In this document: piece by piece, positions 10,120-56,883 of the stretch
Layout: each line of letters starts with the position of its first letter
How positions within the stretch are numbered: position 1 is the stretch's first letter
Assembly (NCBI GenBank): GCA_014237465.1
Contig: JABZFM010000006.1
Span: 186,001-250,000 of the forward strand
DNA: 64,000 bases
Origin: Desulfobacteraceae bacterium
GTDB taxonomy: Bacteria; Desulfobacterota; Desulfobacteria; Desulfobacterales; Desulfosalsimonadaceae
Direction of reading: 5' to 3'
Notes under the pieces: model-generated
Database searches by the model: none
The model's input: only the letters and a program-made list of their open reading frames with translations
What the model was told of the DNA's origin: nothing
Position numbers and translations under genes: made by a program

Positions 10120-10461
10120 ATGCCCGTTATCATTAACAAAGACAAGTTAAACAACCTGGCCGGCGAAATCTGGAAATCCGCCGAGCGGCTGCGGGGCAAA
10201 TTCAAGGCGTACGAGTACCAGACGGTAATTTTGCCGATTATCGTGATTCGCCGCCTGGAATGCGTTTTGATCGACTGGCGCAGCCGACAGGCAAAAGAGA
10301 TCAAGGCAAAACGGCCGGATATTTCCGAAAAAAAACTCACGGAACTGGTGAAAAAGCTGGAGCTGAATCCCGTTAAAACACCCTTTTCAAACACTACGGA
10401 CTGGACCCTGCGAGAGGAATTGAGGTCAAATCTGCTCTTGACTCTTAATGACGTCGTCTGA
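10120..10461 (+). pseudogene. hsdM: Type I restriction-modification methyltransferase (HsdM), truncated N-terminal fragment
   Basis: From the ATG at 10120 the frame encodes the HsdM N-terminal helical domain: NLAGEIWKSAERLRGKFKA, YQTVILPIIVIRRLECVL and FSNTTDWTLREEL. Homology stops at the left end of the RAYT element (10424), and the last dozen codons up to the TGA are element sequence. The SAM-binding methyltransferase domain and any hsdS or hsdR are absent on both sides. HsdM would normally methylate adenine within the bipartite target of a type I system; this copy cannot. No remnant of the missing part was found to the right of the element, so the insertion was accompanied by deletion. Confidence 0.85.
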
Positions 10462-11455
10462 TATTTTCTCCACACATTTTTTCAGTTGTTTATCAACCGC
10501 CAACCGCGCTTTTACTCTTTCAATGACACTGCTCACTGAACTGTATTTCTGCATCTTAAACTCTTCACAAATCTGAGTTAAACGGTCACGCCGTAACCTG
10601 CGGAATAAATAAATCGCGACATTTCTGGGCTCATTGAACTGGCCCCTTCTTGAAACAAACAGTTCATCCGTATCTATGCTGTAATAGCCGCATACGCTGT
10701 TAATTATCTGTTCCTTTTCAGGTACAAGGGACCTGGCCTGGGGAATCTCATCATCTGTTTTGCCGGCATCGTATTCACTTTTTACCCGGTCAATGAAACT
10801 GTCCGGCCCCAGGAATACCGGCCATCTTTTCCCGTCAAGTGCCCCGCTTACACTTTCGTCACAGTCTTTTTTTATAAACTTTCGATATTCTTTCAACCAA
10901 TCCTTCTTTTTGGGAGTCAACATTGACAAAATAAATTTTTTATCGAGCCAGTCCCATTTTCCGGCAGCTGACAGATAGCCTTTGTGGCTGCTCCATCTAT
11001 ATTTATTAATAGTTTTGACCAGCCCGGCCTTCAGCGGACTTCGATGGATATATCTGACCAGTTGCAAAAGGTAGTCATCGGCGCTGACAAGTATTGATTT
11101 ATACCGGCCGCGAAACAGGGTGCCGTCATAATTATTCCGCCGGTTAAAGTTCTGGGTATAAATACCGTTAAGATGGCGCATACTTCTTGAAAGATTGGCT
11201 TCCGGTGTCTGGACGAGAATATGATAATGGTTCGGCATTAAACAATATGCGGCAATACGAATGTTCCACATCTCCGATGTTTCCCGGAGAAGTTCAACAA
11301 ACACTTCATAATCATCCGTGCTGTTAAAAATCTTCTCAAGGCGCCTGCCACGATTCATTATGTGGTACCAGGCGCCCGGATATTGAATTCTAAGTGGTCT
11401 TGACATATTTCATTTATAACCGACTGCAATGCAAGAGTCAAGGGTAGACTTGACC
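10424..11455 (-). mobile_element. RAYT (REP-associated tyrosine transposase) element with terminal inverted repeats
   Basis: The transposase gene is bounded by 23-bp inverted repeats at 10424-10446 and 11433-11455, identical at about 20 of 23 positions. Both contain the core CTTGACTCTT (right end as complement). The same core occurs in paired form at 43.0, 46.3, 46.4 and 50.5 kb, where no transposase is present. That is the arrangement expected of a RAYT gene and its dispersed REP hairpins. Insertion broke hsdM. Confidence 0.8.
10426..11406 (-). CDS. REP-associated tyrosine transposase (Y1_Tnp / IS200-like family)
   Basis: The 326-residue protein starts MSRPLRIQYPGAWYHIMNRG, the usual opening of this family. 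It carries the HUH metal motif in MPNHYHILVQTP near residue 60, the RGRYKSILV strand and the catalytic-tyrosine helix YLLQLVRYIHRSPLKAG. The C-terminal part (about 200-320) holds a DnaA-like helix-turn-helix region found in long RAYTs. These enzymes cut and join single-stranded DNA at REP hairpins. It appears complete. Its stop codon lies inside the left terminal repeat. Confidence 0.9.
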   Translation of the reverse strand: MSRPLRIQYPGAWYHIMNRGRRLEKIFNSTDDYEVFVELLRETSEMWNIRIAAYCLMPNHYHILVQTPEANLSRSMRHLNGIYTQNFNRRNNYDGTLFRGRYKSILVSADDYLLQLVRYIHRSPLKAGLVKTINKYRWSSHKGYLSAAGKWDWLDKKFILSMLTPKKKDWLKEYRKFIKKDCDESVSGALDGKRWPVFLGPDSFIDRVKSEYDAGKTDDEIPQARSLVPEKEQIINSVCGYYSIDTDELFVSRRGQFNEPRNVAIYLFRRLRRDRLTQICEEFKMQKYSSVSSVIERVKARLAVDKQLKKCVEKISDDVIKSQEQI

Positions 11456-23023: not shown

Positions 23024-23278
23024 ACAACAGGGTGAAAGCTTAATGACAGGCCGGTAATGATCAACACATCGTTGCCGGCTTTATGCCTGACCATGCCTGT
23101 ACCGAAAAACGCCCCAACCTTTTAATATTCGTCTTTGTGCGCGTTCGGACAGCTATTCAAAATATAGCGGGTACGCTCTTTTCTCATGGTATGCAACACG
23201 CCGCCTTTGCAGACAATCTCATCGACCGTGGTCCATCCAAATCCGGAAATCACCTTTTATCAAAAAAAGTGAAATATC

Positions 23279-23403
23279 GATGGCAAAGAAAAAAGCTCCA
23301 AATTCAAGGCGCGCAAATCCTGAGTGATGATTCGTACTTATTGTACTTTGAAGAAACGAAGGATGCAGCGCAACGCAGAAGTTGGACTTTTTACGAAGCC
23401 ATC
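23279..23403. repeat. Intergenic hairpin element (AAGGC...AACGCAG family), copy A
   Basis: It runs from GATGGCAAAGAAAAAAG to CTTTTTACGAAGCCATC, arms that are imperfect complements. The core has AAGGCGCGCAAATCCTGAG on the left and GCAGCGCAACGCAG on the right. A GATTCGTACTTATTGTACTTTG hairpin tip follows the same layout as copies B and C. The right end lies 1 bp from the htrA stop codon. It may serve as terminator for htrA on the minus strand. Confidence 0.8.
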
Positions 23404-23404
23404 A

Positions 23405-34627: not shown

Positions 34628-34813
34628 ACCCCGTCAAGCGAAGACCATCCGATTATCAGGCAACATCCATTTCAATAATCTTTACTTAATTAACAATAAT
34701 TTATGCAGATACCCCGACAATGCGACGGGAATTTTCAATATCATCTTGACATCGGGAAAATCAATTGATAAAAAAATTGCTTTTAAAGTGAAATTTATAA
34801 AAAGTAAATTCCG
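34628..34813. other. Intergenic region without recognised features
   Basis: AT-rich DNA left of copy B of the hairpin element; together with the element and the sat leader it makes a 418-bp gap. No terminator or ORF with family support is visible. Confidence 0.35.
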
Positions 34814-34953
34814 GATGGCAAAGAAAAAAGTTTCACCATTCTTATAAAAATTGGCAAGGCGCACAAATTCTGAGTGATAATTCGTACTTATCGCGCCATG
34901 AAGAAACGAAGAATGCAGTGCAACACAGAAGTTGGACTTTTTACGAAGCCATC
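34814..34953. repeat. Intergenic hairpin element (AAGGC...AACGCAG family), copy B
   Basis: It starts GATGGCAAAGAAAAAAG and ends CTTTTTACGAAGCCATC, like copy A, with the interior AAGGCGCACAAATTCTGAG, GATAATTCGTACTTATCG and GAAGAATGCAGTGCAACACAG. It is about 140 bp and ends 92 bp before the sat start codon. Confidence 0.8.
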
Positions 34954-37520: not shown

Positions 37521-38294
37521 ATGCAAAAACATTACTACCTGATTCATTTTCAATATCTGGGGTTCCGATATCACGGCTGGCTTAAACAGCCGGAGTTAAG
37601 AACTGTCGGATATATGATTGAGAAAACGCTCAAATTTATTTTAGACCATAACAGGTTTAAAATTTTAGTCGCCAGCCGGACGGATGCCAAAGTATCTGCC
37701 AACCATTCCGCATTTGAACTTTTTGTTAATGAGCCCTTGAACCCGGATCAATTACTGACCGATTTTAATCTAAATTTACCAAACGATATCAAAGTGTTAA
37801 AAATTGAAGAAAAGGATAAAAACTTCAGTATTATCAACGCCCCGAAAACCAAAGAATACATCTATCTGTTTTCTTTTGAAGAAAAATGCCATCCCTTCTG
37901 CGCGCCGCTGATCAGCTCATTTCAGGATCATCTGGATATTGAATTGATGAAAGCCGGCGCTTTATTATTTCAGGGAAAGCATAATTTTACCAAATACTGC
38001 ACCAAACCGAAACCGGGCGCCACGTTTGAAAGGGAAATCCTGGTGAGCAAAATCAAAGAAAATACGATGTATAAAGCCAGTTTTTTCCCGGATAAAAGTT
38101 ATGCATACGTCATCCGCTCCAAAGGATTTTTGCGGTACCAGGTCCGTTTAATCATGGGACAACTCCTCAGTCTTGGTCGGGGAGAAATCAGTTTAAACGA
38201 TATCAGAAAATCTCTTAAAGGAAATGATAATCAGCCGCTCAGACATATTGTCCCGGCTTCCGGTCTGATTTTAAACAAAATTGAGTTTGATTAA
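37521..38294 (+). CDS. truA: tRNA pseudouridine synthase A-like protein
   Basis: The 257-residue protein has the TruA fold with the catalytic Asp55 in VASRTDAKVSANHS, the N-terminal FQYLGFRYHGW, and FTKYCTKPKP and FLRYQVRLIMGQLL later. TruA modifies uridines 38-40 of the tRNA anticodon arm. The motif reads SRTDAKVSA rather than GRTDxGVHA, a divergent form also seen in Bacteroidetes and eukaryote-like branches. A second, canonical truA may exist elsewhere. Transfer is possible. Confidence 0.85.
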   Translation: MQKHYYLIHFQYLGFRYHGWLKQPELRTVGYMIEKTLKFILDHNRFKILVASRTDAKVSANHSAFELFVNEPLNPDQLLTDFNLNLPNDIKVLKIEEKDKNFSIINAPKTKEYIYLFSFEEKCHPFCAPLISSFQDHLDIELMKAGALLFQGKHNFTKYCTKPKPGATFEREILVSKIKENTMYKASFFPDKSYAYVIRSKGFLRYQVRLIMGQLLSLGRGEISLNDIRKSLKGNDNQPLRHIVPASGLILNKIEFD

Positions 38295-38395
38295 TTATCA
38301 TTAGAACCACTTAAATTTAAAGTTTATCTATGCATCATGTTTATTTATGCATCATTGTTTTTTAGACAAAATAAATGTATTAAAAAGGTGTTGAA

Positions 38396-38842
38396 ATGAA
38401 TTCAAAGACAAAGATTGGAATAGTTATCTGCGATCGCTACCGCCGCTGTGCGGGTGGAAAGTGTTTCCGGGCGATGAAGAACAAGGAAGGGGCTTTCAGC
38501 ATATACAGGGACACTGAAGTTGAGTTGGTTGGTTTTACAACGTGCGATGGGTGTCCTGGTGGCAATATAGAATATGCGGGCGAAGAGATGGTAAAGAATG
38601 GCGCAGAAGTTATTCATTTAGCTACCGGCCTGGTGGTTGGTTATCCCCCCTGTCCCTATATCAATACATTCAAAGCCTTTCTTGAAAAACGCCATGAGGT
38701 CAAGGTCGTTGTCGGCACGCACCCGATACCAAAAAAGTATCTTGATATGCATAATCATCTTGGGACATGGGAGAACTCCGTATGGAACCCACTTATCGCG
38801 CCGACCATGAATGATGAAGTAACCCGTGCCAGTTACGATTGA
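38396..38842 (+). CDS. CGGC-domain protein
   Basis: The 148-residue protein matches the CGGC domain family: VICDRYRRCAGGKCFRAM, FTTCDGCPGGNIEYAGEE and YPPCPYINTFKAFLEK. The many conserved Cys residues suggest metal or Fe-S binding. Function unknown. A 129-bp copy of its 3' end, about 94% identical, lies at 42807-42935. Confidence 0.87.
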   Translation: MNSKTKIGIVICDRYRRCAGGKCFRAMKNKEGAFSIYRDTEVELVGFTTCDGCPGGNIEYAGEEMVKNGAEVIHLATGLVVGYPPCPYINTFKAFLEKRHEVKVVVGTHPIPKKYLDMHNHLGTWENSVWNPLIAPTMNDEVTRASYD

Positions 38843-38970
38843 GTAGTGCTTGTTCGGAAATGGGGGAAATGGGGTCGAGGGAAATGGGGAAATGGGGAAA
38901 TGGGGGGGAAATGGGGTCGGACCAAGCTAACTGACAGGAATTATGTGTAATACGCTTGAAAAATTTCCTC
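38843..38970. repeat. GGGGAAAT microsatellite and junction with insertion sequence
   Basis: From about 38860 to 38920 an 8-bp unit (GGGGAAAT) is repeated about six times with small length changes. It ends in GGTCGGACCAAGC, which echoes the GGTCCGACC units at 20.1 and 21.7 kb. The insertion sequence begins about 50 bp later. Confidence 0.6.
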
Positions 38971-40926
38971 TTTATAGGCCTATATCTTACATTTCGCACT
39001 ATGAAAAAAAGTTTCTGGTTTATTATGCGACAAGCGGTCAAATATCATGCGGCAAGCTGCCAAAAAGTCATATAAGTGCTTGTAATTAATTTAAATAAAA
39101 AAAATCTAGACTTTTCCCTTAGATTGCTTTATAACATCCCATAAACGAGACATAAGGGGGTGCTATGGAGCAATTTGAAACACGGTTCAAACAAGTCGAT
39201 GTATTTCCAATGGTCAAGCATTTCATGGATGAACTTAACCTGTTTAATCTCTTTACAAAATATGTTCCTGCAGCACCGGATTGCCTGGCGGATCATGCCG
39301 AAAGCCTGTGCATATTAACAGCGAATATCATATGCGAGAACAAGCCGCTTTACAAGGTTCAAGAATGGCTGAGCAGATATTCCGATGGTCTTGACGGAGA
39401 ACCGGTAGATGCGAGTCTCTTTAATGATGATCGACTCGCCAGAGCACTCTCGGCACTTTTCCAGTCAGACCGCCATTCAATAATGACCGAGGTATCCTGT
39501 AACGCGATTGCTGTTCACAAACTGCTTACTGATGAAATACACAATGACAGCACAACCGTGACATTCATCGGTAAGTACGACACGCCAGATCCGGAAGCGG
39601 TCAAGCTCAAGCATGGTCACAACAAGGATTTCCGGCCTGACTGCAAGCAGGTCGTATTTGGTTTGAACATTACGGCAGACGGCCATGTCCCGATCAGCTA
39701 TAAACTTTTTAACGGCAATACCAATGATGATGTCACGCATATACCGAACTGGAACGGACTGCGCACATTATTGGAAAAAGAAGATTTTCTTTACGTGGCC
39801 GACTGCAAGTTGTGCAGCCAGAAAAATTTAACCCACATTTCAGGAAATAACGGTTTTTTTATCACCATCGTCCCGAAAGACCGAAAGGAAGTCAAACGAT
39901 TCTTAAAATATCTGAAAAGAAATAATGTCACATGGAAAGACGCTTTTAGCATCGAAAGCTCACGTAAAAAAGGTGAGATGAATATTTATAAAACATATGA
40001 GTCCGGACGGACAAAAGAAGGATTCCGCATCATTTTTGTTCACAGCAGCTTAAAACAGAGAGACGATGAAGCCCGAAGACAGAAAAAGATAGAGAAGGCA
40101 ATTGCGAATTTAGAGGAGCTATCACCAAAACTGAATGCCTATCATTTAAAAACCAAAAAAGAGATCAAGGCAGCCGTGGATAAAATTTGCAAGGGGGTTA
40201 AAGGGTTGATCGACGTTAAGATCTTAACCAAACGCAAGCAGGTTAAAGTGAAAATATCTCCCGGCAGGCCCTCCCTGACAAAAAGCGTCTATAAAAACAA
40301 ATGGGAGTTCACACACAGTATTCAATGGGAATTAAATGAACAGGCCCTTGCCGAAGCATCAAAGACCGGTGGGATCTTTCCATTGATTACCAATACGGCA
40401 TTGGAAGCCAGTGAGGTATTGAGAAAATATAAAAACCAACCGTTCCTTGAAAAGCGAATGTACACCAAAAAGACGGTTCTTGAAGTAGCCCCTGTTTTTC
40501 TAAAAAAGGAGAAACGCATTGAAGCCATGCTTTTTCTTTATTTTGTGGCACTGATGATAGTGTCGCTTCTTGAACGAAAGATTCGTATGAATATGGCAAG
40601 GGAAAATATAGAGAAACTGCCTATTTTACCGCAGGGCATGAATTCTAAAAAACCAACATGGAACAATATTCGATACTTTTTTCGAAATGTCCACTACTCG
40701 AAAATAATCCGGGATGGCACATGCATACAAACAATGGTGAAAGGGCTAAGTGCCTTGCATGAAGATATCAACCGGCTTTTAGAAATTTCCGACTCAGTGT
40801 ATAAAAACCTTGAGGACAGTTGGTGGCAGTTTAGAGAAACATGATTGATTTATCGAAAGATTTAGTGAGAATATTCAAAAAATATTTTTTGAAGGAGCGA
40901 AATGTAAGCTATATCGCCCTTTTTAG
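38971..40926 (+). mobile_element. IS1634-type insertion sequence
   Basis: The transposase gene is flanked by imperfect inverted repeats, left about 38972-39010 and right about 40889-40926. They share CTTACATTTCGC and a GGNCNATAT stretch. Exact borders and a target duplication cannot be set by eye. Confidence 0.7.
39165..40844 (+). CDS. IS1634-family DDE transposase
   Basis: The 559-residue protein matches IS1634 (IS4 superfamily) transposases. The N-terminal DUF4277-like part has VDVFPMVKHFMDELNL and VQEWLSRY. The DDE core starts at HNDSTTVTFIGKYD, continues with KQVVFGLNITADGHVPISYK and FLYVADCKLCSQKNL, and the late segment is EGFRIIFVHSSLKQRDDEAR. RIEAMLFLYFVALMIVSLLE carries the usual C-terminal helix. 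The frame is intact, so the element could be active. Confidence 0.93.
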   Translation: MEQFETRFKQVDVFPMVKHFMDELNLFNLFTKYVPAAPDCLADHAESLCILTANIICENKPLYKVQEWLSRYSDGLDGEPVDASLFNDDRLARALSALFQSDRHSIMTEVSCNAIAVHKLLTDEIHNDSTTVTFIGKYDTPDPEAVKLKHGHNKDFRPDCKQVVFGLNITADGHVPISYKLFNGNTNDDVTHIPNWNGLRTLLEKEDFLYVADCKLCSQKNLTHISGNNGFFITIVPKDRKEVKRFLKYLKRNNVTWKDAFSIESSRKKGEMNIYKTYESGRTKEGFRIIFVHSSLKQRDDEARRQKKIEKAIANLEELSPKLNAYHLKTKKEIKAAVDKICKGVKGLIDVKILTKRKQVKVKISPGRPSLTKSVYKNKWEFTHSIQWELNEQALAEASKTGGIFPLITNTALEASEVLRKYKNQPFLEKRMYTKKTVLEVAPVFLKKEKRIEAMLFLYFVALMIVSLLERKIRMNMARENIEKLPILPQGMNSKKPTWNNIRYFFRNVHYSKIIRDGTCIQTMVKGLSALHEDINRLLEISDSVYKNLEDSWWQFRET

Positions 40927-41286
40927 GGGTAAAAACGGAATTATTCAATTAATCGACGGTGCAGGACATTTCTTATAAAGCCCATTTCGGGGTCAAAAAG
41001 CGTGATATAGGGCCTGATAATACCTATTTTTTGAACGATTTTGTAAAGAAAGCAAAAATATAGCTTGGGCCGACCCCCGGATGCCCCCGGATGCGAATGC
41101 CGGATGACCCGGATGTGGTACGTATAGCTGGTTACTGCGCATACTTCGATGACCTTCCCGATGCCGCACATCACCAGAACCCGTATTGAGGTTTAGTACA
41201 AAAATAACAGTAGGCATGCACAAAGTTGAAGAGTCACAAGTTGGACAAACCTCCCTCATCAACTTTGTGCCTAAAAGGAGATGATC
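40927..41286. other. Intergenic region with inverted repeat before the iron-sulfur gene
   Basis: No gene is supportable. The sequence contains ATATAGGGCCTGATAATACC and other stretches like insertion-sequence ends. GCACAAAGTTGA (41218-41229) and TCAACTTTGTGC (41259-41270) form a perfect 12-bp inverted repeat just before the AAGGAG of the next gene. It could be an operator or a leader hairpin that hides the ribosome site. Confidence 0.5.
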
Positions 41287-42642
41287 ATGAAAGAGAGAAT
41301 TTCGGCTTTTCATCAAGATAAATGCATTCTATGTGGGCAATGCCTTTATCAATGTCCTGTCTTAGAATTATCCATAGAAGAGGCAAAAATAGAAAGGAAG
41401 AACCTCATAGAGGGGAGACAATCCCGATATGTCCTGAGTAAATGTACCTCATGTATGTCATGTAATCTATATTGTCCTGAGCAGGCCAATCCGTATCAAC
41501 TGATACAGGAAAGATGGAATGATTTGTATAAGACCAGAGGTGCCCCGTCCATCTATAAAGGTGTATGTCCGACACAAGAATCGAATGTATGGCAACTGCT
41601 TAATATATTTTTATCAGAAAGGGAAAAGAAATGGATTTCCCAATGGATGGATTATGTTCCTGAGCCAAGGGATAAAGTTTTATTAATCGGAAATTTTATA
41701 CATTTATTTCCCTTTATAATCGGGGGAAGTAAATTATTAGATTATTTTAAACCTATAGACAGAATCGATCAATGGGAAGGAGGTGCTTATCTATATCAAA
41801 GCGGATATTTAGATATTATTCAAAAAATCGCTGAAAGGACTAAAAATGATTTTGATGGATGGGGTGTTCAAACAGTTGTTCCGATATTAGACGCTGTTCA
41901 CAACATGTTCACTCAAGTGCATCCTAAAGAAATGGGGATAAAACATGACCAAACCTTTATAAATTTTCATGATTGGTTATTAGAAAAGATTAATGAAGGT
42001 GAAATAGAATTACCTAATCAATTAAATCTTACCATTACAGTTCATGATAATTGCTATTCAAAGCCTTTCGGCGATGATGGTTGGAATAAACATCGAGAAA
42101 TTTTAGAGAAATGCGGCTGCAAAATCCTGGAAATGCAACACAATAGGAAAGATTCGCTGTGTTGTGGATTTGGAGCAGGTGCTTCCTGGGTAAAAAATAT
42201 CTCTATACCATTTGACATTGTCTCTGAAGGAGCAAAAAAATTTAAAGAAGCAGAAAAAACCGGGGCAAAGGCATTGGTCTCGTATTGTGGGGGATGTATC
42301 TACACGCTATGGGCAATGAGAGAACTCTTTGGTAGCAAGATAGATGTCTATCATTCTATAGAAATAGTGAGAATGGCTATGGGAGAGAAGATAAATTATC
42401 CACATGACCATGTTAAGCGAGCCTGGGATATAATCGCAACAATGACATATCAATTGCTTATTTCTGTTTTTCAGAAAAATTTCTTTATTGAGGACATTAC
42501 ATACGATGCAGACTTGAGTACGTTCAGGCCCAAGAAATATAGATTGCTGAGATTTATTAGGATGTTGTTTGATATCCCTATGTTTAGAAGCTTGTATGCA
42601 AAGATATTTAGAATATTGATGCCGATAATGAAAAGCCGATAA
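41287..42642 (+). CDS. Iron-sulfur/CCG-domain oxidoreductase subunit (HdrD/GlcF-like)
   Basis: The 451-residue protein starts with two 4Fe-4S motifs (CILCGQCLYQCP and CTSCMSCNLYCP). Two CCG domains follow, HDNCYSKPF...CGCKILEM...LCCGFGAG and LVSYCGGCIYTLW. These are hallmarks of HdrD/GlcF/LutA-type subunits, which pass electrons to heterodisulfides or quinones. AAGGAG ends at 41280, so the second ATG at 41287 fits better than the first at 41281. Codon use is much more AT-rich than neighbouring genes. The gene sits between an insertion sequence and REP hairpins, so it was likely acquired. No partner subunit is adjacent. Confidence 0.87.
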   Translation: MKERISAFHQDKCILCGQCLYQCPVLELSIEEAKIERKNLIEGRQSRYVLSKCTSCMSCNLYCPEQANPYQLIQERWNDLYKTRGAPSIYKGVCPTQESNVWQLLNIFLSEREKKWISQWMDYVPEPRDKVLLIGNFIHLFPFIIGGSKLLDYFKPIDRIDQWEGGAYLYQSGYLDIIQKIAERTKNDFDGWGVQTVVPILDAVHNMFTQVHPKEMGIKHDQTFINFHDWLLEKINEGEIELPNQLNLTITVHDNCYSKPFGDDGWNKHREILEKCGCKILEMQHNRKDSLCCGFGAGASWVKNISIPFDIVSEGAKKFKEAEKTGAKALVSYCGGCIYTLWAMRELFGSKIDVYHSIEIVRMAMGEKINYPHDHVKRAWDIIATMTYQLLISVFQKNFFIEDITYDADLSTFRPKKYRLLRFIRMLFDIPMFRSLYAKIFRILMPIMKSR

Positions 42643-42751
42643 TCCCTTTAAAAGAGTGAATAGTAAATAGATTTATTTATAGATAATGTCTGTAGTGCGT
42701 TTATATGGAAAATCTAAATCTGGGGACCAAATCTGGGGAAAATCTGCGAAA
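42643..42751. other. Short intergenic stretch with AATCTGGGGA units
   Basis: Three AATCTGGGGA-like units near 42713-42770 lead into the hairpin listed next. No gene. Confidence 0.4.
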
Positions 42752-42805
42752 ATCTGGGGACATACCTATTTATTGAAGAAATAAGTATGCTGTTCCCAGA
42801 TTTTT
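42752..42805. repeat. REP-like hairpin, second family
   Basis: AATCTGGGGACATACCTATT on the left pairs with AATAAGTATGCTGTTCCCAG on the right around a short loop. Hairpins with GGGGACATACCTATTT ends are common partners of RAYT transposases in related genomes (from memory). It differs from the CTTGACTCTT family of this window. Confidence 0.6.
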
Positions 42806-42806
42806 A

Positions 42807-42935
42807 GGCACGCACCCGATACCGAAAAAGTATCTTGATATGCATACTCATCTTGGGACATGGAAGAACCCCGCATGGAACCCACTTGTCGCGCCGACCA
42901 TGAATGATGAAGTAACCCGTGCAAGTTACGATTAA
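42807..42935 (+). pseudogene. 3' fragment of a second CGGC-domain gene copy
   Basis: These 129 bp match the last 43 codons of the gene at 38396-38842 with 8 differences, including the stop codon (TAA instead of TGA). The reading frame ends with the same TMNDEVTRASYD. The 5' part is absent; a REP-like hairpin abuts the break. Confidence 0.9.
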
Positions 42936-42999
42936 GCAGAAGATAGAGAAAGGATAAAGGGTCCGGCCGTTCATTCTTGACAGTTCAAATAGAGTGATT

Positions 43000-43065
43000 G
43001 GGGTCTGACCTTGGCCCTTGACTCTTGTAAAAAAATGGTAATGGGTCAAGAGCAGATTTGATCCC
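43000..43065. repeat. REP hairpin, CTTGACTCTT family
   Basis: A left arm GGGGTCTGACCTTGGCCC followed by CTTGACTCTT pairs with GGGTCAAGAGCAGATTTGAT on the right. The arms match the terminal repeats of the RAYT element at 10.4-11.5 kb. It directly abuts the broken S66 peptidase fragment. Confidence 0.75.
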
Positions 43066-43066
43066 A

Positions 43067-43237
43067 AACTTTGTTTATCAGACTTTTGATGATATTTTTT
43101 CCAGAGATTGTTTTCCGATTCTGGCCGGTTTTGACGTTGGGCATGATGAGCCGAATTTAACCGTTCCTTTTGGGATTAATACGTCTTTTGACACTTCTAT
43201 GGGAAAGCTTTTATTTAATGAGTCTGTGTTCGGGTAA
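43067..43237 (+). pseudogene. C-terminal fragment of an LD-carboxypeptidase (S66/MccF-like) gene
   Basis: The frame from 43067 reads FVYQTFDDIFSRDC, then FPILAGFDVGHDEPNLTVPF and GINTSFDTSMGKLLFNESVF before a stop. This matches the C-terminal end of S66 peptidases (GxPxGHxxPNLTLPxG). The upstream part is replaced by a REP hairpin. The last 23 bp overlap, antisense, the 3' end of the following gene. Confidence 0.65.
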
Positions 43238-45089
43238 CCGCATTTGGAATATTACCCGTGTAAGACGGGGACCCCCTGCGTACTTTCAAATACAGTGAAG
43301 AATCTTTGCTCAATTCGATTGGTAATCCTGCCGCAAGTGCCTGCACGGAATAATGCAATTGCTCACCGGTATTACTATTAACCACCGTATACGATTTCCG
43401 AGGTTCAACAACAAACCATTCTGGTGTTGCATTGAGACGCGGATAGTTAACGGGAAGTCTCCATATCGTACGATGGCGGGGTACATCGAACTTTAAAATA
43501 CCTTTCCATTTATTATCAGTGCTAACGTGGATATATAATTCTTCGTTATTTTTATCGTAAATAGCACCAACACATACATCTTCACGCCATGGCGCGGCAA
43601 CAATACCTTGTGTTTTGTACGTGGCGTATAAGAGCGCGGTCCGAATGAAGTTTCCATCCAGATACATTTCTTCAACAAAACCGGAAGGGTGCTGTTTGTT
43701 AAACATAATTTCAATCTCATCATCCACCCAACGATGGCATTCCGGCATATCAAACCAAGCCAATAAATATAACATCGATTCAATCGTATCAGCATAGCCG
43801 TCTTGAAAATACCCTTCCCACAGGAATGACTTACGGGATGCCACGGCTTTCATTGTCCGTCTAATTTCTGCTTCGTACCTATGGGTACCTTCCGCGATAT
43901 CAAAAATTTGGTACGCATTCAGTATATACCCCCAAGTATCTATTATTACCTTATCAATTGGTTTACCGGTGTTGGTATTGATTTTGCTATACCACAGTCC
44001 GTCTTCAGTCCGCCCTATCGTAAGAATATGATCGAGAAATTTTTTAAGTGGTTTACGATAACGGACGGCTTGAGGCCGCTTCTGTATTTTTTCTAAAAAA
44101 TACAATTCTGACAAACCCGCAATTATCTCACTTCCGTGATCTCGCAGCGTACAAAGGGGAACAACCGGCTGTTTTCTTGAAAATTCCCAATCTTCAGGCG
44201 GTAAATAGTTATTATGAGGCAATATTTCAAAGAGATATGCCTGCGCAATACGCTCAGCCATTTCCAGATACTTGTCTTTTTGTGTTACCCAATAAAGCCG
44301 CGAGAGGACTTGAAGCATCTCCCCATTGACTTCACAATTTGACGAGCACAGTGCGCCTTCAGGAGTCTGCACTGAGGCACCATCTATAAGAGCTCCTATA
44401 ATTTCTTCTAACCGGGTAAACCACGGCCCAGATCCGATACATTCACTTATCGCCAATAAACCATCCTTAGCATATTCAGAGGCACCGAAGATAACTATTG
44501 GTAAATCTTCTTTCACCACCCTCGTTGGTTTAAAGTGTATCGTATACGGCATTACCCCACACAGTTCTCTTTCTTTAGCCAACGCATCGAGCCACTCTTC
44601 TGTATTATCCGTATCAAGACGCAAACTTGCCAACAATAAAAAAGAAAACAAATCAGCGGCAGTATCTTTTGTATTCCAATAACGTTTCTTGGCATTACTA
44701 TATTTCGGGACAAGCCCTGTCTCCGCGTCCCGCACTTTTTCCCACGCTTTCAACGTACGATACGCACGTTGAAACGCCTCCTGCGCCAGAATAGAATTGA
44801 GAAAAGCGGCGTGCTCCAGCTCATCCCGCTTGATACTCCTATATAATGAGGCTACTATATGCCGACGAGCGCTCACACGATCTTCCGGAAGAATTAATTC
44901 ATAGTTCCTTATAAACTGATCCCCTACAATTTCCCGCATAATTTTCTGACCAAGTGGTGTAGCTCCCGCTTTTCGTAAAATTGTTTTTGTTACCATTTTA
45001 AACGTAACCGTATGCATTGTGAATAACCCTACACAGAAAATCACGAAACACATAATCGTTGTAACTAAAATTTTCTTTTTAAATTTCAC
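43215..45089 (-). CDS. Unknown membrane-anchored protein, alpha/alpha-toroid-like
   Basis: The 624-residue protein has an N-terminal membrane anchor (ILVTTIMCFVIFCVGLFTM) and a long extracytoplasmic region. Repeated helical segments rich in Trp, Tyr and Leu (RAYRTLKAWEKVRDAETGLV, DLFSFLLLASLRLD, DTWGYILNAYQIFDIAEGTH) suggest an alpha/alpha toroid as in glycoside hydrolases or polysaccharide lyases. A beta-rich C-terminal part follows. The family was not recognised. It pairs with the glycosyltransferase gene 44 bp upstream, pointing to glycan processing at the envelope. Confidence 0.6.
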   Translation of the reverse strand: MKFKKKILVTTIMCFVIFCVGLFTMHTVTFKMVTKTILRKAGATPLGQKIMREIVGDQFIRNYELILPEDRVSARRHIVASLYRSIKRDELEHAAFLNSILAQEAFQRAYRTLKAWEKVRDAETGLVPKYSNAKKRYWNTKDTAADLFSFLLLASLRLDTDNTEEWLDALAKERELCGVMPYTIHFKPTRVVKEDLPIVIFGASEYAKDGLLAISECIGSGPWFTRLEEIIGALIDGASVQTPEGALCSSNCEVNGEMLQVLSRLYWVTQKDKYLEMAERIAQAYLFEILPHNNYLPPEDWEFSRKQPVVPLCTLRDHGSEIIAGLSELYFLEKIQKRPQAVRYRKPLKKFLDHILTIGRTEDGLWYSKINTNTGKPIDKVIIDTWGYILNAYQIFDIAEGTHRYEAEIRRTMKAVASRKSFLWEGYFQDGYADTIESMLYLLAWFDMPECHRWVDDEIEIMFNKQHPSGFVEEMYLDGNFIRTALLYATYKTQGIVAAPWREDVCVGAIYDKNNEELYIHVSTDNKWKGILKFDVPRHRTIWRLPVNYPRLNATPEWFVVEPRKSYTVVNSNTGEQLHYSVQALAAGLPIELSKDSSLYLKVRRGSPSYTGNIPNAVTRTQTH

Positions 45090-45133
45090 AACTTATTTCC
45101 CATCAATCTTCTTGATCAGCGAGGTATGCGATT

Positions 45134-46222
45134 TTACTTTTCCAGTAATGCATTATACGTAGCGATATGAGCCGCTATCGTGTTCTCTAATTCATAATGT
45201 TCCTTTACATACTGATATCCCTCTTCTCCCTTCACGCGCCATTGGCCGTTCTGAAGTAGAAGAGAAAGTCCCCGGTCGAAATTACCGTCATGCACATGAT
45301 AGCCATACCGTTCGCTTAAGCGCTCAGGATTGACCGCGCTTAAGAGCGCGCATTTATGTGCTAAGGCCTCAAGGAATGATGTCGGCAACCCCTCACGCGT
45401 TGAGGTATTCACCACAATCCAACTTTTTTCTAATATTTCGAATAACGTTGTGGTCGTAAATTGGTCAATGAATCCGGGCATTTCGACATTGGGAAGTGAG
45501 CCATACGTTTCCCGCAAAAACCGGTCCCATGTCTGGTCCTGACTTTTACCCGGCGCAATAAATCGAACCGACGGGTGTCTTCTGGCGAGTTCGAAAAAAA
45601 GTTGCGGCCGTTTGCGCCGATCCCACCGCCCCACAAAAGCAACGGTTGGTGTTTGCCTCTTTTTCGGTACCACATCCGGCACATAAATCGGATTGGGAAG
45701 AAAAGAAACTTTTTTATTGATGGAATACACACGCGGCACAATAGCGCCAAGATACCGGGAACAATAACATAATGCATCTGCCCGTTGTAATGCTTTTGTA
45801 ACGAAATAATTATGTTCATACAGCAACGCTAAGAGGGCCCGTATTCTATTGACCGATGGCGCTTTTATCTCCTCCAGCCAATCATGCCACCCTTTTGGAT
45901 CTCGAAAAGTAATAAGGTGCTTTTTCGATGGCATTGCCTTCATTGCATTATAGGTCGTAAGGCTTGGTTGTTCAGAATGATACACGTCGGCATCACATGT
46001 TTTGAATAATTCGCCACATGACATAATCGTGCGAAAGGGATAACTATACACCGTTATACCATCGAGGATTTCAACCGGTTGCTGCGCGCGCCGTCTCGGT
46101 ACAACAGCGCATACGTCAACATCACGCTTGACGAGCTCACGACTCAGCATGCGAGTTGCACGCCCAAAGCCGCCGTATTTTCCCCACGCAAAGAATTCAC
46201 TGCAAATAAAACAAATTTTCAT
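45134..46222 (-). CDS. GT4-family glycosyltransferase
   Basis: The 362-residue protein has a GT-B fold with the N-terminal glycine-rich FAWGKYGGFGRATRMLSREL and C-terminal VAFVGRWDRRKRPQLFFELA. The donor-site motif is STREGLPTSFLEALAHKCAL. It likely transfers a sugar from a nucleotide donor to a lipid or glycan acceptor at the inner membrane. It forms a two-gene module with the membrane protein downstream, and REP hairpins border the module on both sides. Confidence 0.88.
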   Translation of the reverse strand: MKICFICSEFFAWGKYGGFGRATRMLSRELVKRDVDVCAVVPRRRAQQPVEILDGITVYSYPFRTIMSCGELFKTCDADVYHSEQPSLTTYNAMKAMPSKKHLITFRDPKGWHDWLEEIKAPSVNRIRALLALLYEHNYFVTKALQRADALCYCSRYLGAIVPRVYSINKKVSFLPNPIYVPDVVPKKRQTPTVAFVGRWDRRKRPQLFFELARRHPSVRFIAPGKSQDQTWDRFLRETYGSLPNVEMPGFIDQFTTTTLFEILEKSWIVVNTSTREGLPTSFLEALAHKCALLSAVNPERLSERYGYHVHDGNFDRGLSLLLQNGQWRVKGEEGYQYVKEHYELENTIAAHIATYNALLEK

Positions 46223-46336
46223 ACTACCCGTTTTATTTATTTGAGGGGTCGGGGTGTTTTCCCGATCCCTTATTTATTTTCCAATTTAAACTTCACTAAT
46301 ATGAAGTACTTTCATTACCGACTCCAATCCCGACAA

Positions 46337-46479
46337 GGGGATCTGCCCTTGACTCTTGTAAAAAATAACAATGGGTCAAGAGCACGTCTTTTAAATGGGT
46401 GACCCCATATGCCGGGGGTCAACTGCCCTTGACTCTTGTAAATAAATGGCAATGGGTCAAGAGCAGATTTGATAACCCC
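46337..46479. repeat. Two adjacent REP hairpins, CTTGACTCTT family
   Basis: Copy 1 (46337-46406) and copy 2 (46414-46479) each have CCCTTGACTCTTGTAAA on the left, a short AT-rich loop and AATGGGTCAAGAGCA on the right, with outer GGGG.../...CCCC ends. They match the RAYT element ends and the copy at 43000-43065. The intergenic region 46223-46563 holds nothing else recognised. Confidence 0.8.
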
Positions 46480-46563
46480 AAACCCAAACCTTTTTTGACC
46501 CCAAACCTTTTTATCTTTATTTTTTAAAATGAGTCCCGTTTTTTTATGGATTTGCCGTGCAGC

Positions 46564-48537
46564 CTAAAATCGGAAAGAGGCTGTAAGATATACGATATGC
46601 GCCTCATAATCCTCACCAGCATAAGCACCGGTTAGTGTGGCGCCTGAGGAGAGATAGGTATAACCTTCCCACTGGTCATCTTTGAATTCATATTTTTCAA
46701 ACAGATATCCTGTTGTCAGAAAAATATTATCGGCAAGCGTGTAAAAACATTTGGCCTCAAACTCCTGCCTGGAAAAGTCTTCAACATTATAAAGATTTTC
46801 ATAATCACCGGAATCGGGTGAAAATTCCGCTTTCCCGTCAACGAAAATATGATTCCATGAGATTTCGAATCCAAGCTCGTCTGTTACTTGCGGAATATCA
46901 AATAAAATTCCGTACGCCCAGGTATCAAAGGATGTTGTTTCGTCCCACTCATACATGGATTCAAGGTCAGTCTCATCATATTCATAACCGAAATATATGG
47001 TTGAATAAAGGAACGTATTATACCCATAATAAGATGAAAGGTAGACTTCATGGTGGGTTACACCTGTCAGGCCGTAGACTGTATTCTCATAATCAGTATC
47101 CAACCACGCATATTCCAACCCGCATCCCAACTGGTCCATTAAATAGAATTCTGTTTCCAATTCAATGCTGTTTTTCTGCTGTGGGGCCACATCATACATA
47201 ATGGCGCCAGTGCTACTATAAGGGTCAAGCAGGCTCCCATCGAGTTCAAAATATTCTTCCAGATCTTCCTCATTCATCGTCGTGTTATCGTTTCCTTCTG
47301 GAACAGTATAACTGCCGTCACGGTTTAAAAATTCATACCGGGCGCGAAACTGCACACGGTCCCAGTACCTGTTACGGAACTGCAGAAAGGCCAGGTGATC
47401 TTTGGTTTTATCATTATCGCTTCTTCCTTCGCGTTCTGTGTCCGTGTAGCTGTAGCCGGCGTCCATACTGGTCCGGGCCGGAAGGGCAAGGATGGTATCA
47501 AAACCGGTGGCGCATTTGGTGTAGCTATATGGGGTTGAGTCGACAGAATCAAAAGTCACTTCTTGGCTTTTATTGTCACGGTCATGGTATTTTGTATAAA
47601 TCTTAATGTCTAAAGGGTTTGCAGGGGTAAAATTCCAGGCCGCGTTGATATGGGTGTTTAAAACTTCACCTTCAAAATTTTCCGTTTCAAGGGAAGGATC
47701 GAATTCAAGAAGGTTTAAATCGTTTTCCATGCGGGAATTACTGGCACGTAAAGATAGAACGGATGATAAAAAATCCGGCTTCCAGGTCAGTTTACCGGAC
47801 ATTTTCCAGTAGTCATTATCCGGGGCAAGGGAAGTGATGGTGCCGTCTCTTGAGACGGTATCATTTTTATTCTCAAATTCACTGAAGTCTCCCCGGAGAC
47901 TTACCAGCAGAGACTGAGTCCTGTACCCACCACCGATAAACGCGCTCTCTTCTTGCCAGTCAATGGGTGCGGGAAACTCTTCTGTGGGCCGAAAACCGCT
48001 GTACGGATAGAGACCGTTTGATTTTTCATTTTTTCCACCAAACTCAATATAAAACGGAGTTTTAAAATACAATTCAGCATCAGCACCGGCTTTTTCACGC
48101 TTTTTGGTATAGTCAAATACAGTCCACAGCTTGGGGGCATCAGCAATCTCTGAATTCGCCTTCAGGTTTCCGGAACCGATACCGGTATAATATGACCTGG
48201 CATCATATGTGAGATTATGCGGAATTTCATCATAGAATACTGATATTTTATAATTACCGTAACGGCCGCCTCTAAATAGGTAGGACTGGTCATCCCGGGC
48301 GATATTTTCAGCGATTATATCTAAATAATTACTTTCTTTTGATACATTGATTTCAGCGTCGCCGGAAAGGCCGCCGCTCATGTCCCGGTATTCCTCAAAT
48401 TTTGCGCTGTCATTGTTTACATGTACCCCACGGACTTCAGAATCAATGCTTCCATGGATTTCGACTTCTTCGGCCCACAGAGTTAACGGGCAAAGAATGA
48501 AAGTCGCAGCGAGCATCATCAAAGCAATTTTCTTCAT
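46564..48537 (-). CDS. MtrB/PioB-family outer-membrane beta-barrel protein
   Basis: The 657-residue protein has a signal peptide (ALMMLAATFILCPLTLWA). Amphipathic beta strands follow throughout, many with aromatic residues at the ends, finishing in YLTASFRF with terminal Phe as in outer-membrane barrels. Length and pattern (GNYKISVFYDEIPHNLTYDA near residue 90) fit MtrB/PioB porins that hold a multihaem cytochrome inside the barrel. The N-terminal CxxC of Shewanella MtrB is absent. The DmsE-type cytochrome gene is 14 bp upstream on the same strand, so the two likely form a trans-outer-membrane electron conduit. Confidence 0.85.
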   Translation of the reverse strand: MKKIALMMLAATFILCPLTLWAEEVEIHGSIDSEVRGVHVNNDSAKFEEYRDMSGGLSGDAEINVSKESNYLDIIAENIARDDQSYLFRGGRYGNYKISVFYDEIPHNLTYDARSYYTGIGSGNLKANSEIADAPKLWTVFDYTKKREKAGADAELYFKTPFYIEFGGKNEKSNGLYPYSGFRPTEEFPAPIDWQEESAFIGGGYRTQSLLVSLRGDFSEFENKNDTVSRDGTITSLAPDNDYWKMSGKLTWKPDFLSSVLSLRASNSRMENDLNLLEFDPSLETENFEGEVLNTHINAAWNFTPANPLDIKIYTKYHDRDNKSQEVTFDSVDSTPYSYTKCATGFDTILALPARTSMDAGYSYTDTEREGRSDNDKTKDHLAFLQFRNRYWDRVQFRARYEFLNRDGSYTVPEGNDNTTMNEEDLEEYFELDGSLLDPYSSTGAIMYDVAPQQKNSIELETEFYLMDQLGCGLEYAWLDTDYENTVYGLTGVTHHEVYLSSYYGYNTFLYSTIYFGYEYDETDLESMYEWDETTSFDTWAYGILFDIPQVTDELGFEISWNHIFVDGKAEFSPDSGDYENLYNVEDFSRQEFEAKCFYTLADNIFLTTGYLFEKYEFKDDQWEGYTYLSSGATLTGAYAGEDYEAHIVYLTASFRF

Positions 48538-48551
48538 GCCTTCCTCCTTAC

Positions 48552-49457
48552 CTAGTAAATGAGCCGTTTACCGCGTCGGGTGGGTGACCAGCTTCCATGA
48601 ACATTCGGGTGGCAGTTCAGACAGGACCGGCCGTAAAATTTGTTGCTCGGTTTGGATCCGTTAAAACTGCTATTCCGGTCTAATGCGGTTGAATTGATAT
48701 GGCTGCTGAAGTGGCAGCCCTGGCAGAGATTCGGGACCTTCTGGTTCAAAAGCTTTTTGTGGTTGCTGCCGTGGGATTTGTGACAGGTACCGCAGTTTTC
48801 TTCCACCGGCGGATGCTCCCACATAAACGGCCCCCTTTTCTCAGCATGGCACCGGTAGCACAATTCGTTTAGAAAGTCGGCTCTCAGCATATCATCTGTC
48901 AGAGTGCCGTGGGGGTTATGGCAGTCCTGGCATTCTACTTTTCCTTCCCTGATGGGGTGCCGGGACTGTTTGTTTGCGTCAATTTTGATGTCCAGATGAC
49001 AACTATAGCAGGTCTCCGGCATGGGGGCAATGGGGCGGGCGTCCTTGTGTACGGGATGGCACGCGATACAGGAAACATCTTGTTTGGCATGCAGGTCTGT
49101 TTCCCACATAGCGACATGCTGGCTGGAAGCGTGGCAGGATAAACACCGGTTGTTTTGTGCTTTCTGGCTGGGGGACTGGCTGCCGAAAGTAATGATCGTA
49201 GAGGCTTCCGGTGTGACCATGTGTTCGCTTCCGGGGCCGTGACACGCTTCACACTGTTTTTCTGAATATTTGTCATTACTTAATAAAGCTTTACTGTGAA
49301 CAGACCGGTCAAATGCCTTTATCATATCGTCATGGCAGGACAGGCAGGTTTCGGTCCCGATATAGTCGGGCTGTTCATCAGACCGCCCGTCATCAGGCAT
49401 GATGCCGATTAGAATGATGATCATCACAAGTCGGCAGAATAGAACGGATTTCTTCAT
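48552..49457 (-). CDS. DmsE/MtrA-type decaheme c-type cytochrome
   Basis: The 301-residue protein has an N-terminal signal and exactly ten CXXCH haem sites: CLSCH, CEACH, CLSCH, CIACH, CYSCH, CQDCH, CYRCH, CGTCH, CQGCH and CLNCH. Spacing matches DmsE/MtrA, the periplasmic decahaem partner of MtrB. It would carry electrons across the periplasm into the barrel encoded 14 bp downstream. No outer-surface MtrC/OmcA-like cytochrome is in the window. Confidence 0.93.
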   Translation of the reverse strand: MKKSVLFCRLVMIIILIGIMPDDGRSDEQPDYIGTETCLSCHDDMIKAFDRSVHSKALLSNDKYSEKQCEACHGPGSEHMVTPEASTIITFGSQSPSQKAQNNRCLSCHASSQHVAMWETDLHAKQDVSCIACHPVHKDARPIAPMPETCYSCHLDIKIDANKQSRHPIREGKVECQDCHNPHGTLTDDMLRADFLNELCYRCHAEKRGPFMWEHPPVEENCGTCHKSHGSNHKKLLNQKVPNLCQGCHFSSHINSTALDRNSSFNGSKPSNKFYGRSCLNCHPNVHGSWSPTRRGKRLIY

Positions 49458-49901
49458 CTTTCTCCCTCATAATAAATAATTGATAAGGTATAAATAAATA
49501 TTGATAGCTATCGGTTTACTTTTTACACACACATGTGCATAAAAGTACACATTTAAAAGCGGCGAAAATTCATTATTTCCATCCCCTCATGCGTGGTATG
49601 CTTGTTTGGCAGGCCGTTTCACACCTGCTTCAAACACATTTTATTTTTTCCGGATCTATATTTTATAAAATATACAGTCAGTTTTGAGCCGTTAAGATTT
49701 ATCACAAGGTTATGTCTCTAATTTCATATAAATCCGGCAGAATGATGGAATAATTTGCACCGTCAATTCGACCGGGGCTGGCATATGTTTTGCTTAATAT
49801 TCATGTGACAAAACAGTGTTTACCGTTATGTTTATTATCACTATTTTGCATGATTCTGAAAGGCAACACATAAAATTAAACTTTAATTTAAGGAGGATTG
49901 C
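49458..49901. other. Divergent intergenic region
   Basis: This 444-bp gap separates the divergent cytochrome gene and the acidic secreted protein gene, so it should contain promoters both ways. ACACACATGTGCATAAAAGT near 49527 includes a short palindrome (CACATGTG). AAGGAGG lies at the right end for the plus-strand gene. No RNA gene or ORF was recognised. Confidence 0.45.
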
Positions 49902-50444
49902 ATGAAAGCAAAGATTCTTATTATCGCATTGGCATTGGTATTTGTTATCACAGTAGTTCCGTCTATGGCAAAACCCAAAATCTATGGCGATGTGGATGTA
50001 CCGATTAATGTTACTGTTGATGCTGGAGAAGTGGAGACAGTTATTTGCTGGGACGTTCCCACAGGAGAAGAAGAAGTAGTCAATCCTGCAACCAAATGGT
50101 CCGTGGTATTTTTTCAATCCGTTACCTATACTTATGATGAGTCATGTGAAGATACTTATTGCGTTGATGGCGAAATGGTCGTTGAGGTTGATTACGGGAC
50201 TATGGATGAAGATGTTGAGTTTGATGATGTGGCGCTTTGCCTGACAGTTGATCAGGGCATGGTTGAAGGCGAACTTGAAAACTTTGCTATTTCTGCAACC
50301 CCTATCTGTGAATGTGAGGCAACATATGAATTGGGAACCGTCTGGGCAAAGGTTAAAGGCCTGGCGCCTGCCAAAGGAAAGCGTCAGAATAATGTATTTT
50401 CTGAAATTGTAGAAGTCTGGGCCGTAGAAATATTGCCGGAATAA
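49902..50444 (+). CDS. Small acidic secreted protein of unknown family
   Basis: The 180-residue protein has a signal peptide (ILIIALALVFVITVVPSMA). The mature part is very acidic, beta-rich and contains several Cys (SCEDTYCVD, LCLT, ICECEATYE). The spacing suggests disulfides or metal binding; no CxxCH is present. A perfect AAGGAGG precedes the ATG and a strong terminator follows, so it is a single well-expressed gene. It is divergent from the DmsE/MtrB pair. No known domain was recognised. Confidence 0.75.
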   Translation: MKAKILIIALALVFVITVVPSMAKPKIYGDVDVPINVTVDAGEVETVICWDVPTGEEEVVNPATKWSVVFFQSVTYTYDESCEDTYCVDGEMVVEVDYGTMDEDVEFDDVALCLTVDQGMVEGELENFAISATPICECEATYELGTVWAKVKGLAPAKGKRQNNVFSEIVEVWAVEILPE

Positions 50445-50497
50445 AAAGTGATACGTTTTTCTACTTAAAAGAGAACTTGGTTCTGGGTTAATGCAAA

Positions 50498-50528
50498 GGG
50501 GCTGTCCTCGTGACAGCCCCTTTTTTTT
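50498..50528 (+). terminator. Rho-independent terminator
   Basis: GGGGCTGTC (50498-50506) and GACAGCCCC (50512-50520) form a perfect 9-bp stem with loop CTCGT and a run of eight T. It ends the acidic secreted protein gene. Confidence 0.95.
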
Positions 50529-50546
50529 ATGACAGATCAAAAGAAA

Positions 50547-50603
50547 GGGTCAGATCTGCTCTTGACTCATTGCAAATTTTTACAAAAGTCAAGAGCAGAC
50601 CCC
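50547..50603. repeat. REP hairpin, CTTGACTCTT family
   Basis: GGGTCAGATCTGCTCTTGAC on the left pairs with GTCAAGAGCAGACCC on the right around an AT-rich loop. It is the closest in sequence to the left end of the RAYT element. Confidence 0.85.
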
Positions 50604-50663
50604 ACTATTTTATAGCTATTTCCAAAGACTCTCGTTCACCCTGCCCACTGGTGATGGCGGGCG

Positions 50664-51449
50664 CTAACCCAAAACTTTAAATTTATGATTAAAGGCATCA
50701 ATCACCGCAACAAACTCCTCCGGCAGCCGTTCAACCACATTTGAAACAATATCTTCCGGGATCTTTTGATAATACGCCTGGGCAACAGCCCCGGCCATAC
50801 ACGCCAGCGTATCACTGTCTCCGCCCAGGGAAACCGCCAGTCGGACGGCATCTTCAAAATCTGCAGATTCGAGAAACGCGATGATCGCCTCCGGCACCGA
50901 TCCCTGGCACGTCACGTCAAACTGGTAAGCGGGACGGATTTCGGCAATTGTCCGGTCCAGATCATACCCGAACCGGTGCGAAACTTCGTTTCGAATCACA
51001 TCTTTTGAAGCCCCTTTTCGCGCCAGAAAAACTGAAAGCGCAATGGTCTGGGCGCCGGCAATCCCGTGGGGATGATTGTGGGTGACCGCCGCGGTTCTTT
51101 CCGCTTCTGCCAGAACTTTATCAATAGTATCAAAGGCAAACCCCACTGGCGACACGCGCATGGCGGACCCGTTTCCCCAGCTTTTATACGGTGCACGGTT
51201 TTCAGAAAACAGCCAGTTGTAAAATAAAAACCCGTATCCGGCATTTGGGTATTTTCGGCCGTATGTTTGAAGGGTTTTCCCGTAATCTTCTTGATTTAGA
51301 ATGGCATCCGCAATCGCCACCGTTAACACCGTGTCATCCGTAAAACGTGATGCATCTGAAAATAAATCAAACGCCATGGTTTTAATCGGATGCGCCTCAT
51401 ATACTGATCCGATGATGTCTCCGGCAATAGCACCAAGCATTTTTTCCAC
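50664..51449 (-). CDS. ADP-ribosylglycohydrolase-family protein
   Basis: The 261-residue protein has the family motifs AIAGDIIGSVYE, FTDDTVLTVAIADA, NGSAMRVSPVGFAF and SLGGDSDTLACMAGAVAQAY, which supply the Mg ions. Relatives remove ADP-ribose from proteins such as dinitrogenase reductase (DraG) or from other acceptors. No DraT partner is nearby, so the target is unknown. It lies downstream of the qmo terminator on the same strand and is probably a separate unit. Confidence 0.92.
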   Translation of the reverse strand: MEKMLGAIAGDIIGSVYEAHPIKTMAFDLFSDASRFTDDTVLTVAIADAILNQEDYGKTLQTYGRKYPNAGYGFLFYNWLFSENRAPYKSWGNGSAMRVSPVGFAFDTIDKVLAEAERTAAVTHNHPHGIAGAQTIALSVFLARKGASKDVIRNEVSHRFGYDLDRTIAEIRPAYQFDVTCQGSVPEAIIAFLESADFEDAVRLAVSLGGDSDTLACMAGAVAQAYYQKIPEDIVSNVVERLPEEFVAVIDAFNHKFKVLG

Positions 51450-56455: not shown

Positions 56456-56733
56456 GCTATCCCTCCGTGCATTTAATGTTTCTAATAAAATAACCTTAAA
56501 ATAATTTCTGTATTTTTATTGATACTGCGGGGGTCGCTTCACGCGAAGCCCTTAAATTTATTCGATATTTCGAAATACAACTGTGGCTCGAAACTTAAAA
56601 CCCGACGCCGGACTCAGACAAAATCGTCCCTTACTGATTTCCGGCTCCCAGTTTTAAGATCCCAGACCTTCAGATGCCTTTTTCAGGCCGAAAAAAGCGG
56701 GATGTTTGATCGTCCCGGAAAAAATCAAATTTC
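56456..56733. other. Upstream region of qmoABC
   Basis: This stretch should hold the qmo promoter on the minus strand; no clear consensus was found. Small hairpins are present (GGGTCGCTTC/GAAGC near 56529-56551 and TTCGATATTTCGAA near 56563). Copy C of the hairpin element begins at its right end. Confidence 0.4.
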
Positions 56734-56883
56734 GGCGGCAAAGTATAAAAGTTCACCAATCTCATAAAATTGGCAAGGCGCGCAAATCCTGAGTAATGAT
56801 TCGTACTTAGCGTACAATGAAAAAACGAAGAACGCAACGCAACCCAAAGCTAAAATAGAAGTTGGACTTTTTACGAAGCCATG
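56734..56883. repeat. Intergenic hairpin element (AAGGC...AACGCAG family), copy C
   Basis: It starts GGCGGCAAAGTATAAAAG and ends CTTTTTACGAAGCCATG. The interior has AAGGCGCGCAAATCCTGAG, GATTCGTACTTAGCGTAC and GAAGAACGCAACGCAACC. It lies between the aprA terminator and the qmoA promoter region. Confidence 0.8.

Follow-up and report, generated by a model that had tools for sequence, protein, structure and literature searches.

In the window analysed here, a 64,000-nt stretch of the genome of a Desulfobacteraceae bacterium (contig JABZFM010000006.1 of GCA_014237465.1, positions 186,001-250,000, forward strand), two adjacent genes are best explained, with good confidence, as a two-component MtrAB electron conduit that was laterally acquired by a bacterium with sulfate-reduction genes. 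The first gene of this minus-strand pair (48552-49457) encodes an mtrA/dmsE-type periplasmic decahaem c-type cytochrome of 301 residues, and the second (46564-48537), 14 bp downstream, encodes an mtrB-type outer-membrane beta-barrel of 657 residues; a third gene, for a secreted acidic protein of 180 residues, is divergently oriented on the plus strand (49902-50444). An earlier note on this DNA had placed the three open reading frames (ORFs) at these coordinates and had taken the barrel and the ten-haem cytochrome for a likely trans-envelope wire, a reading that is now backed by sequence, predicted fold, haem ligands, gene adjacency and co-divergence. From what is known of the family, the pair is very likely an outer-membrane electron wire, for which we infer both assembly and conduction. 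The assignment draws on family membership, haem count and ligands, the modelled barrel fold, pairing and co-divergence of the two genes, the lack of an adjacent MtrC and location in an accessory segment.

On sequence grounds, the product of 48552-49457 is a true MtrA/DmsE cytochrome. It has a short signal peptide and exactly 10 CXXCH motifs, the first at residue 38, and it scores 260.2 bits against TIGR03508, the model of the DmsE-family decahaem cytochromes (cut-off 192.2). Residues 34-293 are aligned by phmmer to MtrA of the solved Mtr complex (6r2q_A, E 3.3e-63), in a match that spans all ten haem motifs. Nine histidines outside the CXXCH motifs align with distal histidines of MtrA, and a tenth, H253, is offset by one residue from an MtrA histidine, a predicted ligand pattern that fits ten bis-histidine haems.

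The product of 46564-48537 is likewise, as judged by sequence and model, a genuine MtrB-family barrel of 26 predicted strands. It matches PF11854 (MtrB_PioB) with 204.6 bits over profile positions 1-635 of 635, and a model built from 20 relatives (mean pLDDT, the predicted local distance difference test, of 81) has 26 long strands, counted from the strand list, which is the number in the solved MtrB (PMC7198977). When this model was searched with Foldseek, the top match was MtrB of the same complex (6r2q_B, E 3.5e-35, template modelling (TM) scores 0.81/0.82), with the second match far behind (E 1.2e-8, TM 0.38); VIA-align also placed 6r2q_B first (Z 26.5 over 595 residues at 2.9 Å; runner-up 17.1). 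Identity to MtrB in the structural alignment is just 17-19%. A single-sequence query with the barrel gave no match in genome contigs; an alignment query with the cytochrome did find relatives.

The closest pair has been found in another member of the same order, the Desulfobacteraceae metagenome-assembled genome (MAG) CSMAG_2887 (G157; locus L053, identical with L044), where the gene order is identical and identity to the window proteins is 56% for the cytochrome and 43% for the barrel. Next-nearest are the MtrAB doublets of Nitrospirota, Syntrophales/Smithellaceae and Desulfurivibrio, with cytochrome identities of 41-46%. The window and L053 cytochromes pair in the tree with support of 100/100; the tree gives this pair no firm position relative to the doublet group (80/85) or to a group containing Shewanella (96/87). 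The two genes are adjacent in 18 loci besides the window, with spacings of 4-62 bp, and the MtrA and MtrB distance matrices from 19 loci are strongly correlated (r = 0.903), a value reached in 0 of 2000 permutations.

Two further features were observed among these relatives. In L062 and L065, both from Syntrophaceae MAGs, mtrAB is followed by a gene for a 4-haem cytochrome, which in L065 is followed in turn by genes for a four-cluster ferredoxin-like protein and an NrfD membrane subunit; the L065 cluster suggests a quinone link for the MtrC-less conduits of these MAGs. In eight loci of other Desulfobacterales (L017-L024), of which L023 belongs to the window organism's own GTDB family, the MtrB-family barrels carry one in-frame UGA at a conserved place, in the context PV[FY][DN]G-U-[AG]G, with a predicted stem-loop at most 50 nt away (without a shuffle control). 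By its sequence setting, this UGA looks like a selenocysteine codon in an outer-membrane conduit barrel. In three inspected neighbourhoods (L050-L052), the UGA-containing barrel ORF also carries CXXCH and adjoins a gene for a 10-haem cytochrome.

In the favoured mechanism, the periplasmic ten-haem MtrA would sit as a plug in the 26-strand barrel of MtrB and pass electrons along its haems across the outer membrane, so that periplasmic cytochromes could exchange them with a donor or acceptor on the cell surface or beyond it. Such exchange might proceed straight from the outermost haem of MtrA, which has been proposed for PioAB, or involve a partner encoded elsewhere. The earlier note had reported no adjacent surface cytochrome, and this is borne out, both in the window, where no other cytochrome gene lies near the pair, and in the nearest relatives, where the stretches around mtrAB (some on short contigs) contain no other cytochrome of at least 10 haems apart from that in L063, where mtrAB is duplicated in tandem. 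A positive control was provided by Photobacterium (L151), in which a gene for a 730-residue, 10-haem, lipoprotein-like protein lies directly upstream of mtrAB. In G309, a more distant relative within the order, a second 10-haem protein is encoded about 3.5 kb away, which leaves room for a surface partner in other branches. The genome-wide profile searches covered TIGR03507, PF22113 and a small number of further cytochrome families, and no match to the OmcA/MtrC family (TIGR03507) was found in the window organism's genome, which is 99.96% complete. Three cytochrome loci of this genome were considered as MtrC substitutes and rejected, namely the HAO-like octahaem/NapC/Hcp cluster (C64), the cytochrome b/Rieske/octahaem cluster (C67) and HmcA (C69), all of which were classed as inner-membrane or periplasmic by gene context and family knowledge. 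Conduits without MtrC have precedents: PioAB is an established MtrC-less wire (PMC6831781), and organisms with MtoAB and no MtrC imply MtrC-less function (PMC8805035).

Several points weigh against the two-component reading. The barrel aligns end to end with TIGR03509, but its 151.6 bits are under the curated cut-off of 240, and it is therefore a divergent member. A surface cytochrome of a different family (OmcS, OetB or an undescribed one) may be encoded elsewhere in the genome, and in Desulfobacterota mtrC can sit apart from mtrAB, for example in D. acetexigens (PMC12133095). On the inner side, the CymA-like candidate (NapC/NirT, C64) adjoins an HAO-like octahaem cytochrome and Hcp, and a dedicated quinol entry point is therefore not evident. 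Possible inner links are present in the genome (this NapC/NirT-type cytochrome, the cytochrome b/Rieske/octahaem cluster, HmcA and smaller multihaem cytochromes), none of them tied by position to mtrAB.

It is reasonable to infer extracellular or interspecies electron transfer, with a direction of flow that can be read in more than one way. The earlier claim of complete sulfate reduction stands for sat, aprA and qmoC, which were confirmed in the host, and for these alone; sulfate could therefore be the sink for inward electrons, unless the wire serves as a second way out for them. Outward respiration of the MtrCAB type, to Fe(III), Mn(IV), humics or an electrode through an unlinked or non-homologous surface cytochrome, has a likelihood not far short of even. 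In Desulfobacterota, mtrA and mtrB stay next to each other and mtrC may lie elsewhere (PMC12133095), and possible carriers in the genome are the cytochrome b/Rieske/octahaem cluster as well as several cytochromes with 3 to 8 haems, but the OmcA/MtrC family is missing from the TIGR03507 search of the genome, and Fe(III) reduction in Shewanella requires an extracellular component (cited in PMC6831781). An inward conduit like PioAB or MtoAB, which would feed sulfate reduction with electrons from iron (Fe(II) or Fe(0)), a cathode or a syntrophic partner, is a tentative but substantial possibility. PioAB and MtoAB, the two best known systems without MtrC, are tied to extracellular oxidation, sat/apr/qmo would provide a high-capacity internal sink, and an adjacent MtrC is also missing in close relatives. 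However, MtrAB can work both ways and MtoA/PioA form no function-specific clade (PMC8805035), the 301-residue cytochrome ends like MtrA and does not have the N-terminal extension that marks PioA, and no PioC-like iron-sulfur protein is encoded next to the pair. Reversible or outward use, with Fe(III), humics, an electrode or a partner cell, is slightly favoured over dedicated uptake.

The DmsE name carried by TIGR03508 raises another reading, in which MtrAB supplies an extracellular molybdopterin-type terminal reductase as in DmsEF; a more distant locus (L074) does have a molybdopterin oxidoreductase upstream of mtrAB. No molybdopterin enzyme is encoded beside the window pair or in the ortholog locus L053 (on a short contig), and no DmsEFABGH-type molybdopterin reductase genes occur in the acquired segment, unlinked genes being outside the search; this reading is accordingly rated improbable.

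The two-component conduit lies in a window-specific segment of 12.4 kb (38291-50675, i.e. 38.3-50.7 kb) between truA and the ADP-ribosylglycohydrolase/qmo genes. In a blastn comparison with the congener G005 (L142), from which this segment is absent, synteny breaks off at 38290 and picks up at 50676; the order in the congener is sat, a homologue of the window gene at 36406, truA, rhodanese, TauE, ADP-ribosylglycohydrolase and qmoC. The segment contains an IS1634-family transposase in its truA-proximal part (39165-40844, plus strand; NF033559 253.2 bits, cut-off 100), a Fer4/CCG protein, a 624-residue protein without assignment, a glycosyltransferase, mtrBA and the acidic gene. In a second congener, G007, the truA-qmoC interval is filled by yet other genes. 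The barrel is absent from all ten sampled congeners, and a strong PF11854 match without an in-frame stop was found in 6 of the 389 sampled genomes of the order, the window genome included. Because the segment is missing from the congener and the barrel from the ten congeners, mtrAB was probably gained by lateral transfer, which is the simplest reading, with repeated loss as the alternative. Base composition shows no sharp contrast. An accessory segment with a transposase and a patchy distribution might also be expected of a recently acquired, non-functional remnant, but neither ORF is broken, no haem or ligand residue is missing, the barrel is complete and the codon statistics are normal, and such decay is very unlikely here.

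The acidic gene was described in the earlier note as strongly expressed-looking and as encoding a possible partner of the conduit. Its codon index of 0.646 is mid-range for the window, and the first description is not borne out. The protein has a signal-peptide-like start, a predicted mature isoelectric point of about 4.05, with 34 D/E and 8 K/R in 157 residues, and six cysteines, none of them within CXXCH; it has no haem motif. As a conduit partner (a surface cap, metal-binding or docking protein), it would share a bidirectional promoter with mtrAB, and its divergent orientation 444 bp away, its secreted, acidic, six-cysteine product and its location in the same acquired segment would suit such a role. 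No homologue was found in 98 relatives, 395 genomes of the phylum or plasmids, nor in a tblastn search of 76 other MtrA/MtrB loci, where one weak match (E 0.36) fell inside L064's own mtrB. Conservation of the three-gene neighbourhood, run as a check, showed that the mtrAB pair is kept and that the acidic gene is not co-conserved in any relative that could be inspected. The gene has its own good Shine-Dalgarno sequence (AAGGAGG) and a strong intrinsic terminator (50495-50523, plus strand; a 12-pair stem, then a T run) and is likely a single-gene transcript, and no operator shared with mtrA was found in the 444-bp intergenic region (49458-49901), which contains weak inverted repeats only. No match was obtained in Pfam, NCBIfam or PDB, and a single-sequence AlphaFold model was unusable (pLDDT 36). 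A role as conduit partner is thus judged remote, and least credible of all is the broader proposal that the segment gave the host a bare MtrAB wire for electron exchange with partner cells, minerals or metal, with the acidic protein as a non-haem cap or docking factor replacing MtrC. The ORF may be a real gene, and its position is its sole link to the conduit; most probably, this is an orphan secreted protein unrelated to the wire, whose gene has the intergenic region in common with mtrA.

Other features of the segment and its surroundings are recorded here in their own right. Among the 33 window genes scored, the one for the Fer4/CCG-domain protein of the acquired segment (HdrD/GlpC-like, 41281-42642) ranks last in both G+C (0.358) and codon index. 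Repeats around GGGTCAAGAG at 43042-43054, 46342-46465 and 50544-50610 flank the mtrAB/acidic block on both sides, and the same window encodes a Y1-type (IS200/RAYT-like) transposase with a DnaA-type C-terminal domain (10426-11406). The palindromic repeats at 46342-46465 and 50544-50610 were considered as candidate mobilisation ends; a strict 39-mer pattern allowing 3 mismatches matched one place in the genome and none of the window copies. A separate interspersed repeat of about 156 bp is found at 23264-23404, 34798-34953 and 56716-56882, with one copy just ahead of sat and another between aprA and qmoA. Its copies are about 80% identical and are common to the window and a congener (L142, 557-712); it carries a short frame that reads MKKRRMQRNxEVGLFTKPS and has no Rfam match at the gathering threshold.

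MtrAB-type wires in Desulfobacterota have been described so far mainly from metal-reducing Desulfuromonadia, and they are rare and patchy in the order of the window organism. An intact, laterally placed MtrAB beside sat/qmo/apr, for which an OmcA/MtrC-family partner was not found, offers a natural test of whether two subunits suffice, and also of electron direction where sulfate is the sink, as in corrosion, Fe(II) oxidation or syntrophy.

The window pair resembles the core of the Shewanella Mtr complex (PDB 6R2Q; PMC7198977) in its decahaem MtrA with ten CXXCH motifs and essentially all distal histidines, its 26-strand barrel and its adjacent genes, but differs in having no adjacent MtrC and no OmcA/MtrC family member in the TIGR03507 search. 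The mtrAB genes of Desulfuromonas acetexigens and other Desulfuromonadia (PMC12133095), from the same phylum in its older sense, are likewise clustered with mtrC apart; their genomes, however, encode mtrC elsewhere together with Omc and Pcc conduits, whereas no MtrC was found in the window genome. OetABI of syntrophic sulfate reducers (PMC10553843) is also a porin-cytochrome conduit with the same overall job in sulfate reducers, but it includes an outward-facing lipoprotein cytochrome, OetB, of which the window has no adjacent counterpart, and the window barrel belongs to the MtrB family (PF11854). The pairs of Nitrospirota, Syntrophales and Desulfurivibrio (L054-L069, L088) share the mtrA-mtrB doublet without an adjacent surface cytochrome; they differ in their neighbours, such as the 4-haem/iron-sulfur/NrfD cluster in L065 and a sulfatase-modifying-factor-like gene in L058, and none has the acidic protein. 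PioAB of Rhodopseudomonas and MtoAB of Sideroxydans and Gallionella are similar in combining a porin and one decahaem cytochrome with no extracellular cytochrome, although the window cytochrome does not have the roughly 200-residue N-terminal extension of PioA, and its host, which has genes for sulfate reduction, is not known to be phototrophic or to oxidise iron. The window pair is best regarded as a conduit of MtrAB alone, which resembles PioAB/MtoAB in parts, with a cytochrome that is not PioA.

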